Shown in pieces: positions 11,642-16,773 of a stretch of 33,501 nt of DNA. The DNA comes from a virus, in the IMG/VR virus record IMGVR_UViG_3300033146_004341, positions 1 to 33,501 of that record; one strand, written 5' to 3'. Position 1 is the stretch's first letter. Each line of letters opens with the position of its first letter. Under the pieces are notes generated by a model, which was given only the letters and a program-made list of their open reading frames with translations, was not told the origin of the DNA and did not search any database. The translations under genes and the position numbers were made by a program.

Positions 11642-12580
11642 ATGAAAAAAATATTAATTACTGGATGAGCTTGATTTGTTGGCTCTAATTTATGTAGGAA
11701 ATTATTAAATGATTGATATTATGTAGTTTGTGTTGATAATCTTTCAACTTGAACATTTAAAAACATAAAAGATATACATAGTTTAAGTTTTACATTCAAA
11801 TGTATGGATATCGAAAAATTAACAGAATGAAAGTTTGATGAGATTTACAACCTCGCCTGCCCCGCCTCGCCGAAAAAATATCAATCAAGACCACTTAATA
11901 CAATACGAACAAATATATTATGAATAAAAAATTGTTTAGAGTTGTGACTAGAAAATGACGCAAAAGTATTGCAAGCCTCTACAAGTGAGGTCTATTGAGA
12001 TGCTGAACAACATCCGCAAAAAGAAACCTATTTTGGAAATGTAAATTCTGTTTGAATAAGAAGTTGTTATGATGAGGGGAAAAGAATTGCTGAAACTCTT
12101 TGTGTCGAGTATAACAGAGAATATTTTGTTAAAAGTAAAATAGTAAGAATATTTAACACTTATTGACCATATATGGATAAGGATGATGGTAGAGTTGTAA
12201 GTAATTTTATTTGTCAAGCACTACAAAATAAAGATATAACAATTTATGGTGATTGATTACAAACAAGGAGCTTTCAATATGTGGATGATTTGGTGGATTG
12301 ACTTATTGCGATGATGAATAAAGATAATTTTATGTGACCAGTAAATATTGGAACAAGTTTTGAATTTACTATTAAAGATTTTGCTGAAAAAATATTGTCA
12401 TTAATTCCGGAGAGTAAAAGTAAGTTGGTATATTTACCATTACCAAAAGATGACCCTAAGCAAAGGAGAGCTGATAATTCACTTGCTAAAAAGGAACTAA
12501 ATCGAGAACCAAAAGTATGATTGGACGAATGATTGCTAAAAACAATAAAATACTTCAAATCTGTCTTGAATATTAAATAA
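11642..12580 (+). CDS. UDP-glucuronate decarboxylase (UDP-xylose synthase)
   Basis: This 312-residue short-chain dehydrogenase has full family length. The NAD-binding loop GGAGFVG spans residues 8-14, with G9 and G11 as TGA. Catalytic residues align with ArnA and human UXS: STSEVYG with S115 and E116, the Y143-x3-K147 pair in CYDEGKR, and the later arginines in KQRRADN. Other family blocks are [47 protein letters not shown] and KDDPKQRR. The enzyme converts UDP-glucuronate to UDP-xylose with release of CO2. The UDP-glucose dehydrogenase gene two genes downstream would supply its substrate. Residues LACPASP are written with seven G- or C-ending codons, unlike the rest. The family is secure; the fate of the sugar is inferred. 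Confidence 0.93.
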
Positions 12581-12583
12581 TAA

Positions 12584-12613
12584 TTTGTATATTATAGTTA
12601 ATTTATATACAAA
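12584..12613 (+). repeat. Nine-base inverted repeat before the small HTH gene
   Basis: TTTGTATAT (12584-12592) and ATATACAAA (12605-12613) are perfect 9-bp arms around a 12-base spacer, four bases after the decarboxylase stop and eight bases before the HTH start. No T run follows on either strand, so it is not a standard terminator. It could be an operator for the HTH protein, or a hairpin that masks its start. Confidence 0.55.
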
Positions 12614-12620
12614 AAAATGA

Positions 12621-12806
12621 ATGAAAACAACAGATATTCAATATTTCAAATCTTTATCAGAATATGCTGTAAAAAAAAGCATAGATTATAGAACTGTAAA
12701 GACAAAAGTAAACAAAGGGGAACTTTTGTTTTTTTTGATAAGGAAAAAAAAGGTATTTGTTGAAAGCAAAGAGTTATGGAAAATTTTATATTCTAAAAAT
12801 ACATAA
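12621..12806 (+). CDS. Excisionase-like small winged-HTH protein
   Basis: The sequence SLSEYAVKKSIDYRTVKTKV is a helix-turn-helix, and NKGELLFFLIRKKKVFVESK looks like the wing and second helix seen in small MerR or Xis-type DNA-binding proteins (61 residues here, typical length). ATG 12621 is preferred because an ATG at 12617 opens a different frame that soon stops. There is no TGA. The gene sits between the two sugar-nucleotide genes, with its stop overlapping the start of the dehydrogenase (TAATG). A perfect inverted repeat lies just upstream. It may regulate this cassette. No integrase is visible, so a true excisionase role is less likely. Confidence 0.6.
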   Translation: MKTTDIQYFKSLSEYAVKKSIDYRTVKTKVNKGELLFFLIRKKKVFVESKELWKILYSKNT

Positions 12807-13633
12807 TGGAAGTAGTTTGATTTATTGGTACAGGTTTTATAGGTTGAAATATGGCACAAAACTTTAAAGAAAGATGATTTGATGTAATACAATATTCATT
12901 AAGCCCAAAATATAATTGAAATAAAGAGGCATTAAGTCAATGTGATAAAGTATTTGTTGCTGTTCCCACTCCAACAAAGAACAGAAAATTTGATGATAGT
13001 ATTTTATTAAGTGCAATTAAGGAGGCAACATATCCTTGACAAAAAATTATTATAAAATCAACTATTATTTGTTGAACGACTGAAAAACTACAAAAGATAT
13101 ATCCGGATAGATATTTTTTTCATAGTGCAGAATTCTTAACTGAAAAGAATGCTAAAAAAGATGTTGATAAACCAAGCAGAAATATTGTTTGATACACAGA
13201 ACTATCTAAACCATATGCACAATGAATAATGGATATTTTACCAAAATCAAAGCATAATATTTTATGTTCAGCAACTGAAAGTGAAATGTGAAAATATATG
13301 AGTAATTTCTTGCTAACATCTAAATTAATTATGGCTAATTTATTTTGGGAATTATGTAAAAAATACAATATAAGTTATGATATGGTAAGTTGAATTGCAG
13401 GAAAAGATAAAAGAATTTGAAATAGTCACTTACAAGTAGAAGATAAAAATAAGTGTAGATGAGCAAATGGGCATTGTTTTCCAAAGGATATGGCAACAGT
13501 TCACGAGATGTATGGTAATTATAGTAAATGTTGACATAATTTATTAGAGGGGTTGGAAATTTATAACCTTAATATTAATTTAAGAACCAAAAAACAAATA
13601 GAGATTATCACAAAAGTTTTTTGATTAGAATAG
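12806..13633 (+). CDS. UDP-glucose 6-dehydrogenase
   Basis: The protein is 275 residues, short compared with the usual 390-440, so one of the large C-terminal regions is reduced. The N-terminal Rossmann fold has GFIGTGFIGGNMA (residues 5-17). Further family blocks are FVAVPTPT, KSTIICGTT, SAEFLTEKNAKKD, SEMGKYMSNFLLTSKL and the catalytic-cysteine motif ANGHCFPKD, with C224. Most of these glycines are TGA. The enzyme oxidises UDP-glucose twice with NAD+ to UDP-glucuronate. With the decarboxylase upstream it forms a two-step route to UDP-xylose. It overlaps the small HTH gene by one base. Stop is TAG. Short versions occur in other phages; activity is inferred from the intact motifs. Confidence 0.9.
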
Positions 13634-13658
13634 TTTTATAATTTATTAAAAAAACACA

Positions 13659-14252
13659 ATGGAAAAAAAATTTATAAAGATTGATATTTCAAAGTTAAAA
13701 AACTATGAAAATAACAATAAAATTCATACGGATGAGGATATTAGTGAGATAGTAAAATCTATTGAAAAATGTGAGTATTTATCGCCTATTCTTATTGATG
13801 AAAAATTTGAGATTATAAATTGACATTGAAGGAAAGAGGCATTACTTAGATTATGATATAATGAAATAGATGTTATTCAAGTAAAATGATTGACTGAAAT
13901 TCAAAAAAAGAAAGCAAGATTATTAGATAACAAGATAACAGATATTGCTATTTATAATTTAGAAAATATCAAAATAGAATTAGAGGAATTAGATGATGTA
14001 GAAATAAAGGACTTATTTTCAGATATTATTTTTGAAAAGGTAGATTATGATGATATCTATAATGGAATGCCGGAATTTGAGCAAGAAGACTTAACAGCAG
14101 ACTATCAAATAAAAGTAAGTTTTTTAACAGTTCAAGATATACAAGATTTTGGGGAAAAAATAGGACAAAAACTTACAGAAAAAACAAGAAGTATTTGGTT
14201 TCCTGCACAAGGTAGAGCTGATTTACAATCTGAAAAAATTATAGATGAATAG
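13659..14252 (+). CDS. ParB-like nuclease-domain protein
   Basis: The 197-residue protein begins with a ParB/Srx-type domain: KIDISKLKNYENNNKIHTDE, then SIEKCEYLSPILIDE and EIINGHGRKEALLRLGY, the conserved G-H-x-R box. It continues VIQVKGLTEIQKKKARLLDN. ParB-like proteins in phages often accompany DNA methylases or base-modification enzymes, where they act on DNA or nucleotides; some members hydrolyse nucleotides. The C-terminal part (about residues 130-197) is unlike chromosomal ParB. The gene follows the dehydrogenase by 25 bases and overlaps the next gene by eight. No parA gene is present, so partition is unlikely. A role in DNA modification or targeting is inferred from its partner. Confidence 0.8.
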
Positions 14253-15102
14253 ATATCCTATTTATATAATCTCCAAAGGTAGGTGGGAAAAAAGACTTAC
14301 TGTAAAGGCATTAGAAAGGATGGGAATACCTTATAATATTGTAGTAGAACCAAATGAATATGATAAATATAAAAAAGTATGTAAGGGGAATGTAATAAAA
14401 CTTGATATGAATTACAAAGAAACCTACGACACATTTGATAATGTGTGACAAAAAATAAGTACTTGATGATGACCGGCAAGAAATTTTGTGTGGGATTTAT
14501 CAGTAAAGAATTGAGATAAAAGACACCGAATTATTGATGATAATATTAGAGATTTTCAAATGTTAAATAGAAATAGAAAGACTGAATGTTTATCGAGTAA
14601 GTTTTTTGACCCTATGGAAGATTTTGTTGATAGGTATGAGAACATAGCATTGGCTTGACCATATTATACGTTCTTTATTCCTAGAAAAGGGAAATATAGA
14701 CCAATTATATTAAACACAAGAGCTTTTAGTTGTATATTAATTCAAAATGATATACCATTAAGACGACGTTGTAGATATAATGAGGATATAGATTTATCAT
14801 TAAGAGCATTGAAATTAAAGTATTGTATAGTTCAGTTTAGATGATTTTTACAAACAAAATCAGCAACACAAACTTGCAAATGATGAAATACAGACGCATT
14901 TTATGCTGAATACTGAACATTACCCAAGTCTAAAATGCTTCAAAAGGCACATCCAGACGTTGTGAAAGTAGTTCTTAGATATGGAAGACGACATCATACG
15001 GTGGATAATACAAAATTCAAGAATAATCGTCTTATCTTAAAGAAAGGCATTGAAGTCAATAAGGGAGTAAATAATTATTGATTTACTAAAATAAAGGTTT
15101 AA
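14245..15102 (+). CDS. TET-associated-type glycosyltransferase (DNA-modifying candidate)
   Basis: The product is 285 residues. The N-terminus, YPIYIISKGRWEKRLTVKAL with GIPYNIVVEPNEYDKY, fits the TET-associated glycosyltransferase (TAGT) family. The GGGPARNFVWD segment follows, in which three successive TGA codons (14464-14472, residues 74-76) give Gly-Gly-Gly, and then RIIDDNIRDF, whose DD pair would bind metal and the UDP-sugar. A later YNEDIDLSLRAL block resembles the acceptor side. TAGT enzymes are known or predicted to put sugars on oxidised or hydroxymethylated bases in phage DNA. Here the neighbours make UDP-xylose, and the terminase follows 18 bases later. Xylose as donor and DNA as acceptor are inferences. 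The family call is firm but the target could instead be a protein or surface glycan. Confidence 0.8.
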
Positions 15103-15120
15103 TTTTTAATATAAATAATA

Positions 15121-15513
15121 ATGGCAAGACCAAGTAAAGATAATCCAAAATGAAAACAAAAAAGACAGGCTTATATAGAGGCAGTAGATAGCTGAAAAAT
15201 ACAAAAGTTGTTTAATGCTTTGAAATGATGAGTTAGTAGAGATTGAGCAATTGTATTAGCTTGATTATCAAGAACAAGTGTTTATGAGCGAATGAAAAAG
15301 ATTGAAAACTTCAGGACTAAAATAGAGGATAACGAAGAATTATGGGTGGCTTTTGTTGAGAATAAGTTGGTTTGACTTGTGAATAATGGATATTATCCAG
15401 CAATTGAAAAAGTGCTTAAAAGTAAAAAAAGAGATATTTATTGAGATAAAGTTGAAACAGATTTGAATGCGAAAATTGATTGAGATATAAAGATAAAATT
15501 ACCAAAAGCATAA
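15121..15513 (+). CDS. terS: Terminase small subunit
   Basis: This 130-residue protein has an N-terminal helix-turn-helix: GGVSRDGAIVLAGLSRTSVY, which ends in the recognition helix, then ERMKKIENFRTK. The C-terminal half is helical and acidic. That organisation and the position directly before the large subunit match phage TerS, which recognises the packaging site and feeds DNA to TerL. Most of its glycines are TGA. The gene follows the glycosyltransferase by 18 bases with an AAATAATAATGG start context. Family resemblance is by architecture; sequence conservation of TerS is always weak. Confidence 0.75.
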
Positions 15514-15573: not shown

Positions 15574-16773
15574 ATGGAAATAGACTTTTCAGATAAAAAA
15601 CTTTATAACAAGAAATATATACCATTATTAAGAAATAATAAGAGGTATAATTTTTTGATGTGATGAGGTTGAAGTTGAAAAAGTGTATTTATTAGTCAAA
15701 AAGAAATAATAAAGAGCTTTCAGATAAAAGACAAAATAATGTGCGTTAGGAGAATTAAAGACACATTAAAAGATAGTTGTTTTGCTGAATTAAAATCAAG
15801 AATAAGGGAATGGGATTTGGAACAATATTTTAAAATAAAAACCTCCCCATTATCAATAAGAAATGTTTTGACTTGATGTGAATTCATTTTTAGATGATTA
15901 GATGATAGCGAGAAATTAAAATCTGTTGAATGAGTTGCAAGGATATGGATTGAGGAGGCAACAGAAATTAAAAGAGATGATTTTGACCAGTTAGATTTGA
16001 GGTTGAGGGGGAAAAAAGAAATGCAAATCACTGCTACTTTTAATCCTACGGACGCAGAACACCGACTAAATACAGACTTTTGGATGTTTTGAAATACTAA
16101 TCAATCAGAGTGCTTACATTCTACCTATACAGACAATGCTTTTGTATGAAAAGAATATAAAGAGGTAATGGATAGACTAATAATAACAAATAAAAATTAT
16201 TATAATATTTATGCTTTGGGAGAATGGGGGGTTTTAGAATGAATGATATTTGAGAATTGGGATACTGTGAAAGAAATACCAAAAGAGGCAAAACTATTGT
16301 GATATTGAAAAGATTTTGGATATACAAACGACCCAACAACATTGATTGCTTGATACTTATATAATAACGAGCTATATTTTGATGAGTTGATATTTGAAAG
16401 AGGTTTGACAAACCAAGATATTATTGAAAGATATGGAGAATTAGGGATAAGTATGGATGATGAAATATGGGCAGATAGTGCTGAACCAAAATCAATAGAG
16501 GAAATATACAGGGGTTGATATAATATCCATTGAGTTACTAAGTGAAAAGACAGTATAATGTATTGAATAGATATAATGAAACAATACTTTATTCATATAA
16601 CAGAAAAGAGCTGAAACTTACATAAGGAATTCAAAAAATATGTTTGGGCAAAAGATAAGACAGGAAAAACACTAAATAAACCAATAGATTTATATAATCA
16701 TTGAATTGATTGAGCAAGGTACTTGTGTATGATGACTATAAATCAATCTAGCGATAATGTTTCATTGTTTTAA
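15574..16773 (+). CDS. terL: Terminase large subunit
   Basis: The protein is 399 residues. The Walker A loop is MGGGGSGKSVF (residues 29-39), where four of the five glycines are TGA codons, which alone argues for UGA as glycine. Walker B is VARIWIEEATE, followed by the coupling motif TATFNPTD. The nuclease domain has GKDFGYTNDPT with the first catalytic Asp, an IWADSAEP segment with the second, and NHGIDGARY near the C-terminus with the last. The enzyme packages DNA with ATP and cuts concatemers. ATG 15574 is the first possible start because a TAA lies four codons upstream in this frame. It is shorter than many TerL proteins but complete. Confidence 0.95.

Follow-up and report, generated by a model that had tools for sequence, protein, structure and literature searches.

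A viral gene cassette of UDP-xylose-type enzymes, a ParB-like protein and a TET-associated glycosyltransferase as a candidate DNA pentosylation system

INTRODUCTION

Directly in front of the terminase genes of one viral genome, two predicted nucleotide-sugar enzymes, a ParB-like protein and a glycosyltransferase are encoded one after another, which raises the question of what such a gene set would do for the virus. The original prediction for this locus was that UDP-xylose is made from UDP-glucose and that a pentose is transferred to the phage DNA before packaging, which would protect it from host restriction. A 2026 survey of 753 phage genomes found TET-associated glycosyltransferases (TAGTs) as solitary enzymes in 288 of them, with neither an alpha-GT nor a beta-GT present, and suggested that these are novel transferases (PMC13216743). 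In a paper on phages of hosts using genetic code 25, DNA hypermodification is not mentioned (PMC10746230).

Here, the window means the whole stretch of DNA analysed, which is the entire IMG/VR record of 33,501 bases with a GC content of 26%. No exact terminal repeats of at least 15 bases occur in it, and thus the record is possibly incomplete.

RESULTS

The four genes are intact under genetic code 25

All four genes were found where the original prediction had placed them, adjacent and on the plus strand: a UDP-glucuronate decarboxylase/UDP-xylose synthase (UXS, 312 aa, 11642..12580), a short UDP-glucose 6-dehydrogenase (UGD, 275 aa, 12806..13633), the ParB-like protein (13659..14252) and the TAGT (14245..15102), which overlaps the ParB gene by 8 nt. 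A small ORF of 73 aa with a TTG start and no family match lies between UXS and UGD (12585..12806, plus strand). As had also been predicted, the terminase comes next, with the small subunit TerS at 15121..15513 (phrog_4102) and the large subunit TerL at 15574..16773 (PF04466 and PF17288), both on the plus strand and used here as position markers outside the proposed pathway.

The four reading frames are collinear and run uninterrupted under translation table 25, and they do so only when TGA is read as glycine. Upon alignment, 9 of the 15 TGA codons of UXS fall on columns that are glycine in 6/6 standard-code phage homologues. The TAGT gene has 11 TGA codons, 9 of which lie on nearly all-glycine columns. 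These positions directly support code 25, which is well supported for the window at the sequence level. Moreover, at least half of the glycine codons in the cassette are TGA, which holds for most of the genome; hence the genes are adapted to code 25 and are no fresh arrivals.

The glycosyltransferase belongs to the TAGT family

The protein encoded at 14245..15102 scored 124.9 bits against PF20691 (cut-off 27.5) in the Pfam profile search called for by the original prediction, and it matched the PHROG family 'beta-glucosyl-HMC-alpha-glucosyltransferase' at 4e-41. The ISKGR and DDN motifs on which the TAGT assignment had been based are both present, and across 33 sequences the residues S10, R13, D98, D99, N100, N179, E180 and D181 of the SKGR, DDN and YNED motifs are invariant. 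A structural model (pLDDT 91.3) has a predicted GT-A fold, and annotated TAGTs are among its best viral fold matches, with A0A6J5QVW5 in BFVD at a TM of 0.88; its PDB matches are distant and are UDP-sugar GT-A glycosyltransferases. Assignment to the TAGTs, with glycosyl transfer to DNA as the predicted activity, is therefore supported by two profile libraries and the predicted fold. A check for better matches among surface-glycan enzymes left the idea standing. Of 380 genomes sampled from the phylum to which the CPR genome G048 belongs, just one had a TAGT above the cut-off, so TAGT is not a surface enzyme that hosts in this phylum usually have.

In its fold, the TAGT model also distantly resembles certain protein glycosyltransferases, COLGALT1 among them, which would suit a TAGT acting on something other than DNA, e.g. 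protein, RNA or free nucleotide. However, the likeness to COLGALT1 is limited to the GT-A fold, and the neighbours of TAGTs include DNA polymerase, clamp loader, DnaB and uracil-DNA-glycosylase (UDG)-like proteins.

In L009:9650-11290 a TAGT is fused to a UDG-like domain, and in L008 a UDG-like protein lies near TAGT. In Vibrio phage henriette 12B8 the TAGT region (L016:8001-8846) is interrupted by an in-frame stop, and no gene is annotated there.

A ParB/W-GMPEF partner precedes TAGT in front of the terminase

The gene upstream of TAGT encodes a ParB/Srx-like N-domain (aa 7-91). The GHGR sequence of the predicted G-H-x-R box is present, and the protein matches PHROG ParB families at 8e-36; with PF02195 it scored 23.4 bits against a gathering score of 26.3, and this model is matched by 14 of 25 aligned relatives. 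Its last 60 residues hold a module (~aa 134-186) that the original prediction had passed over and that we denote W-GMPEF, with the pattern W..MPEF...V.F...F..I.Q..T.KT.SIW.P and no Pfam model. Elsewhere, W-GMPEF either forms the N-terminal part of a TAGT, as in Vibrio phages and others, or stands alone as a protein of ~80-100 aa. A single-sequence fold of the ParB-like protein was discarded (pLDDT 30).

A ParB/W-GMPEF-type neighbour was found at 79 of 99 TAGT loci; nearly always it directly precedes TAGT in the same orientation, and the two genes usually overlap. When the pairs were sorted into types by protein length, 33 of the ParB type had enough downstream DNA, and 26 of these have TerL no more than 3.5 kb downstream. 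The window matches this arrangement exactly. Thus the partner and the place before the terminase, for which the original prediction had proposed a comparison of related genomes, recur in many phages.

The nearest code-25 relative, L183, has a TerL 65% identical to that of the window. In its slot before TerS/TerL, a ParB domain (116 aa) that shares 40% identity with that of the window is joined to an enzyme that, from its motifs, reads as an N6/N4 DNA methylase; this exchange was likewise absent from the original prediction. ParB-DNA methylases of phages and prophages, including those of L183 and the Streptococcus Javan phages, have N-domains homologous to that of the window, but a DNA methylase stands in place of W-GMPEF and TAGT. 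We take the methylase in the equivalent slot of L183 as the best evidence that the ParB-TAGT pair acts on DNA. With the ParB partner and the methylase exchange both speaking against a non-DNA acceptor, we regard such an acceptor as highly improbable. The L183 ParB-methylase is itself split across two overlapping frames (L183:4712-5972), and may be frameshifted or reflect an assembly error.

UXS and a short UGD could supply UDP-xylose

The protein encoded at 11642..12580 (PF01370) has human UDP-glucuronate decarboxylase 1 (UXS1) as its closest solved relative, at 308 bits compared with 132 bits for the next enzyme class. S115, E116, Y143 and K147, which the original prediction had listed as intact, are invariant in the alignment, and the TSE, Y143xxxK147 and RSF (QTRSF) motifs are present. 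It is thus clearly of the decarboxylating SDR type by its sequence, and is predicted to convert UDP-glucuronate to UDP-xylose. The nearest cellular copies include CPR genomes at 60-64% identity, none of them identified as code 25.

The 40-mer with the highest GC content in the window (24/40 bases, in a genome of 26% GC) lies within the UXS gene at 11833-11872, where it encodes a 10-residue motif with GC-rich codons. Gene conversion may have left this patch.

For the dehydrogenase, C224 had been predicted to be intact, and it is invariant in the alignment together with T86, E109, E113, K163, N167 and D228. The original prediction did not remark that this is a short form: the NAD-binding and central domains (PF03721 and PF00984) were found by profile search, whereas the C-terminal UDP-binding domain (PF03720, UDPG_MGDP_dh_C) is absent and the 275-aa protein stops after the central domain. 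The lack of this domain makes the substrate uncertain, and we call the protein UGD-like. The short form makes up a separate phage family: an alignment of three short forms was used as the query, and the protein encoded is short at 79 of the 80 loci found.

A sugar other than xylose might be placed on the DNA, namely glucose, glucuronate, or arabinose that a host epimerase derives from UDP-xylose. The T6 TAGT transfers glucose (PMC13216743), arabinose is the end sugar in RB69 and NP (PMC6024577, PMC13390438), and TAGT occurs with UGD and an SDR that is not UXS in L010, L012, Kuja, L199, L212, L228 and L262. In the window, however, UXS is the sole SDR/epimerase found among the proteins scanned, and it is of the decarboxylating type. 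We therefore think transfer of another sugar unlikely.

UXS and short UGD recur beside TAGT in unrelated phages

Scans with single UXS and TAGT proteins returned few loci, and alignment scans were required. Among the 80 viral loci with the UXS nearest to the window's, TAGT lies within 8 kb of UXS in six. These loci (L008, L139, L154, L163/L164 and L180) represent five lineages, L163 and L164 having the same TAGT. In L154 the order UXS, ParB/W-GMPEF, TAGT, TerS, TerL repeats that of the window; in L139 it is W-GMPEF, TAGT, a GT-B-like gene, UXS, short UGD, TAGT, and in L008 UXS, W-GMPEF with an FkbM methyltransferase, TAGT. Starting from the 80 short-UGD loci, TAGT is within 6 kb in seven, one of which, L260, has the order ParB, TAGT, TAGT, short UGD, TerS-like, TerL. 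In L010, L012 and Kuja, TAGT, a full UGD and another SDR are found in one genome. Thus the proposed comparison also places UXS and short UGD beside TAGT in several unrelated phages.

Linkage of this kind is not general. UXS was found in none (0/43) of the other TAGT records searched whole, which indicates that TAGTs generally need no UDP-xylose and that the xylose branch is an occasional addition. Five UXS-linked TAGT domains fall into one supported 9-row clade without ~10 residues before the ARN motif, and the window TAGT lies outside it. We rejected a single group of UXS-linked TAGTs, as their label clustering was not significant overall (218 of 500 shuffles were as low). Recruitment on two or more occasions is thus likely, and as judged from the sequences the TAGT tree probably gained the xylose branch repeatedly; any signature of donor specificity is no more than a lead.

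The same counts bear on whether UXS and UGD feed a surface or virion glycan and merely adjoin an independent ParB-TAGT pair that modifies DNA. Large phages often carry UXS without a TAGT nearby (74 of 80 loci), the cyanophage L004 has UXS and UGD inside a polysaccharide cluster, and the 0/43 result points the same way. Against this, UXS or short UGD is repeatedly and tightly linked to TAGT in different phages, and TAGT is the only glycosyltransferase found among the window proteins scanned, which leaves a separate glycan pathway distinctly improbable in our estimation.

In a large phage group (L103-L162, ~40 of the 80 UXS loci), UXS lies near apparent UvsE and QueD homologues with no TAGT in reach. 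Genes resembling UvsE were recognised by eye at 42 of 80 and genes resembling QueD at 38 of 80 UXS loci.

The window lacks a recognisable route to a hydroxylated base

To our knowledge, the sugar in glycosylated phage DNA is always carried by a hydroxylated base. The original prediction saw no oxidase or hydroxymethylase in the window, and profile searches bear this out for the possibly incomplete record: no thymidylate-synthase-like hydroxymethylase (PF00303), ThyX, TET/JBP or C5-methylase was found. The TET/JBP model works, since it matched phage C48C1 but no control genome. A thymidylate-synthase-family enzyme was missing from 27 of 28 other IMG/VR TAGT contigs searched, and in most small TAGT contigs neither a TET/JBP oxidase nor a dCMP hydroxymethylase was found, a pattern that by itself would favour the non-DNA acceptors considered above. 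Occurrence with either enzyme is an association of TAGTs and does not enter into how the family is defined by sequence. The large TAGT phages searched (Aeromonas, Vibrio, Tenacibaculum and Pectobacterium) have a thymidylate-synthase-family enzyme.

The characterised T6 TAGT transfers sugar from UDP-glucose onto glucosyl-hydroxymethylcytosine (PMC13216743). As this enzyme acts on glucosyl-hydroxymethylcytosine and the record shows no route to hydroxymethylcytosine, the acceptor gap is real. The host, a phage enzyme that escaped recognition or one encoded in a missing part of the genome might make the acceptor; otherwise TAGT would use an unmodified base. Carboxymethylation of the CmoX type (PMC12783734) was considered as an acceptor handle and set aside, the window having no C5-methylase. 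A ThyX-like sequence was seen by eye at L212:11684-12433, in a phage that also encodes TAGT, short UGD and an SDR.

DISCUSSION

The reading starts from what can be seen in the DNA: four enzyme identities as predicted from sequence, intact catalytic residues, the gene order, and a set that recurs in unrelated phages. From these we infer a pathway whose enzymes would act in sequence. Short UGD would oxidise UDP-glucose to UDP-glucuronate, which UXS would decarboxylate to UDP-xylose; ParB/W-GMPEF would guide TAGT to the phage DNA, TAGT would move the pentose, presumably xylose, onto a base, and the pentosylated DNA could resist host nucleases. Comparison has added weight to the DNA-pentosylation reading of the original prediction through TAGT identity, the ParB partner, the terminase slot, the methylase exchange and the UXS/UGD linkage, and we hold a DNA-directed pentosyl-transfer cassette to be the best explanation of the window genes, and a moderately probable one.

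These comparisons give solitary TAGTs a partner that recurs, ParB/W-GMPEF, frequently located immediately before the terminase; one subset also gains a predicted donor, UDP-xylose, together with homologues in which the prediction is testable. If true, a virus infecting code-25 bacteria of the Gracilibacteria/Absconditabacteria type would hypermodify its DNA. It is a doubtful but conceivable extension that phages with ParB/W-GMPEF and TAGT glycosylate an unmodified base, or a group set by an unrecognised enzyme, with no hydroxymethylase or oxidase of their own, and that the UGD-UXS subset, including the window virus, adds xylose by a new route.

The closest enzyme among known systems is the T2/T6 beta-glucosyl-HMC-alpha-glucosyltransferase, which has its Pfam (PF20691) and PHROG families in common with the window TAGT; the GT-A fold predicted for the latter is reported for T6 TAGT (PMC13216743). 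T6 TAGT adds glucose to glucosylated hydroxymethylcytosine and stands beside an alpha-GT and a dCMP hydroxymethylase, whereas the window has neither a first GT nor a hydroxymethylase, and has a ParB partner and UDP-xylose genes instead.

Pentosylated phage cytosine is already known from RB69, NP and Thanatos, with other enzymes. The Mosigvirus phages RB69 and NP have arabinosyl-cytosine DNA and resemble the proposed system in placing a pentose on phage cytosine with phage-encoded nucleotide-sugar genes (PMC6024577, PMC13390438). They differ in having a GT-B-type transferase candidate, a cluster of isomerase, epimerase, kinase and NTP-transferase genes, and a thymidylate-synthase-superfamily enzyme for 5-hydroxycytosine, with no phage UGD/UXS identified. 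Shewanella phage Thanatos has a putatively xylose-like pentose on cytosine and a UDP-xylose-making enzyme, TH1_063 (PMC12838424), but this is a pyrophosphorylase acting on xylose-1-phosphate and not UGD plus UXS; its transferase candidate is another one, and a hydroxymethylase-type gene is present. With PF00303 absent from this possibly incomplete record, the window does not group with the RB69/Thanatos pentosyl-cytosine systems.

UGD genes are also found in Thornevirus LIS04 (SP-15 group), in the TET/JBP-bearing phage C48C1 and in the TAGT phage Kuja. SP-15 DNA contains a thymine derivative with glucuronate. As in the window, the UGD of the SP-15 group and of C48C1 is phage-encoded, and it lies among genes for replication or DNA modification, but neither TAGT nor UXS was detected beside it. 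In C48C1 (L186, Kyanoviridae), TET/JBP, a DNA methyltransferase, an SDR and short UGD lie in or near the replication genes, and tblastn found no TAGT; this gene set is possibly another sugar-DNA system.

Finally, the window encodes an ArdC-like anti-restriction protein with ArdcN and zincin domains (1064-1951), which is a second candidate defence of this virus against host restriction.
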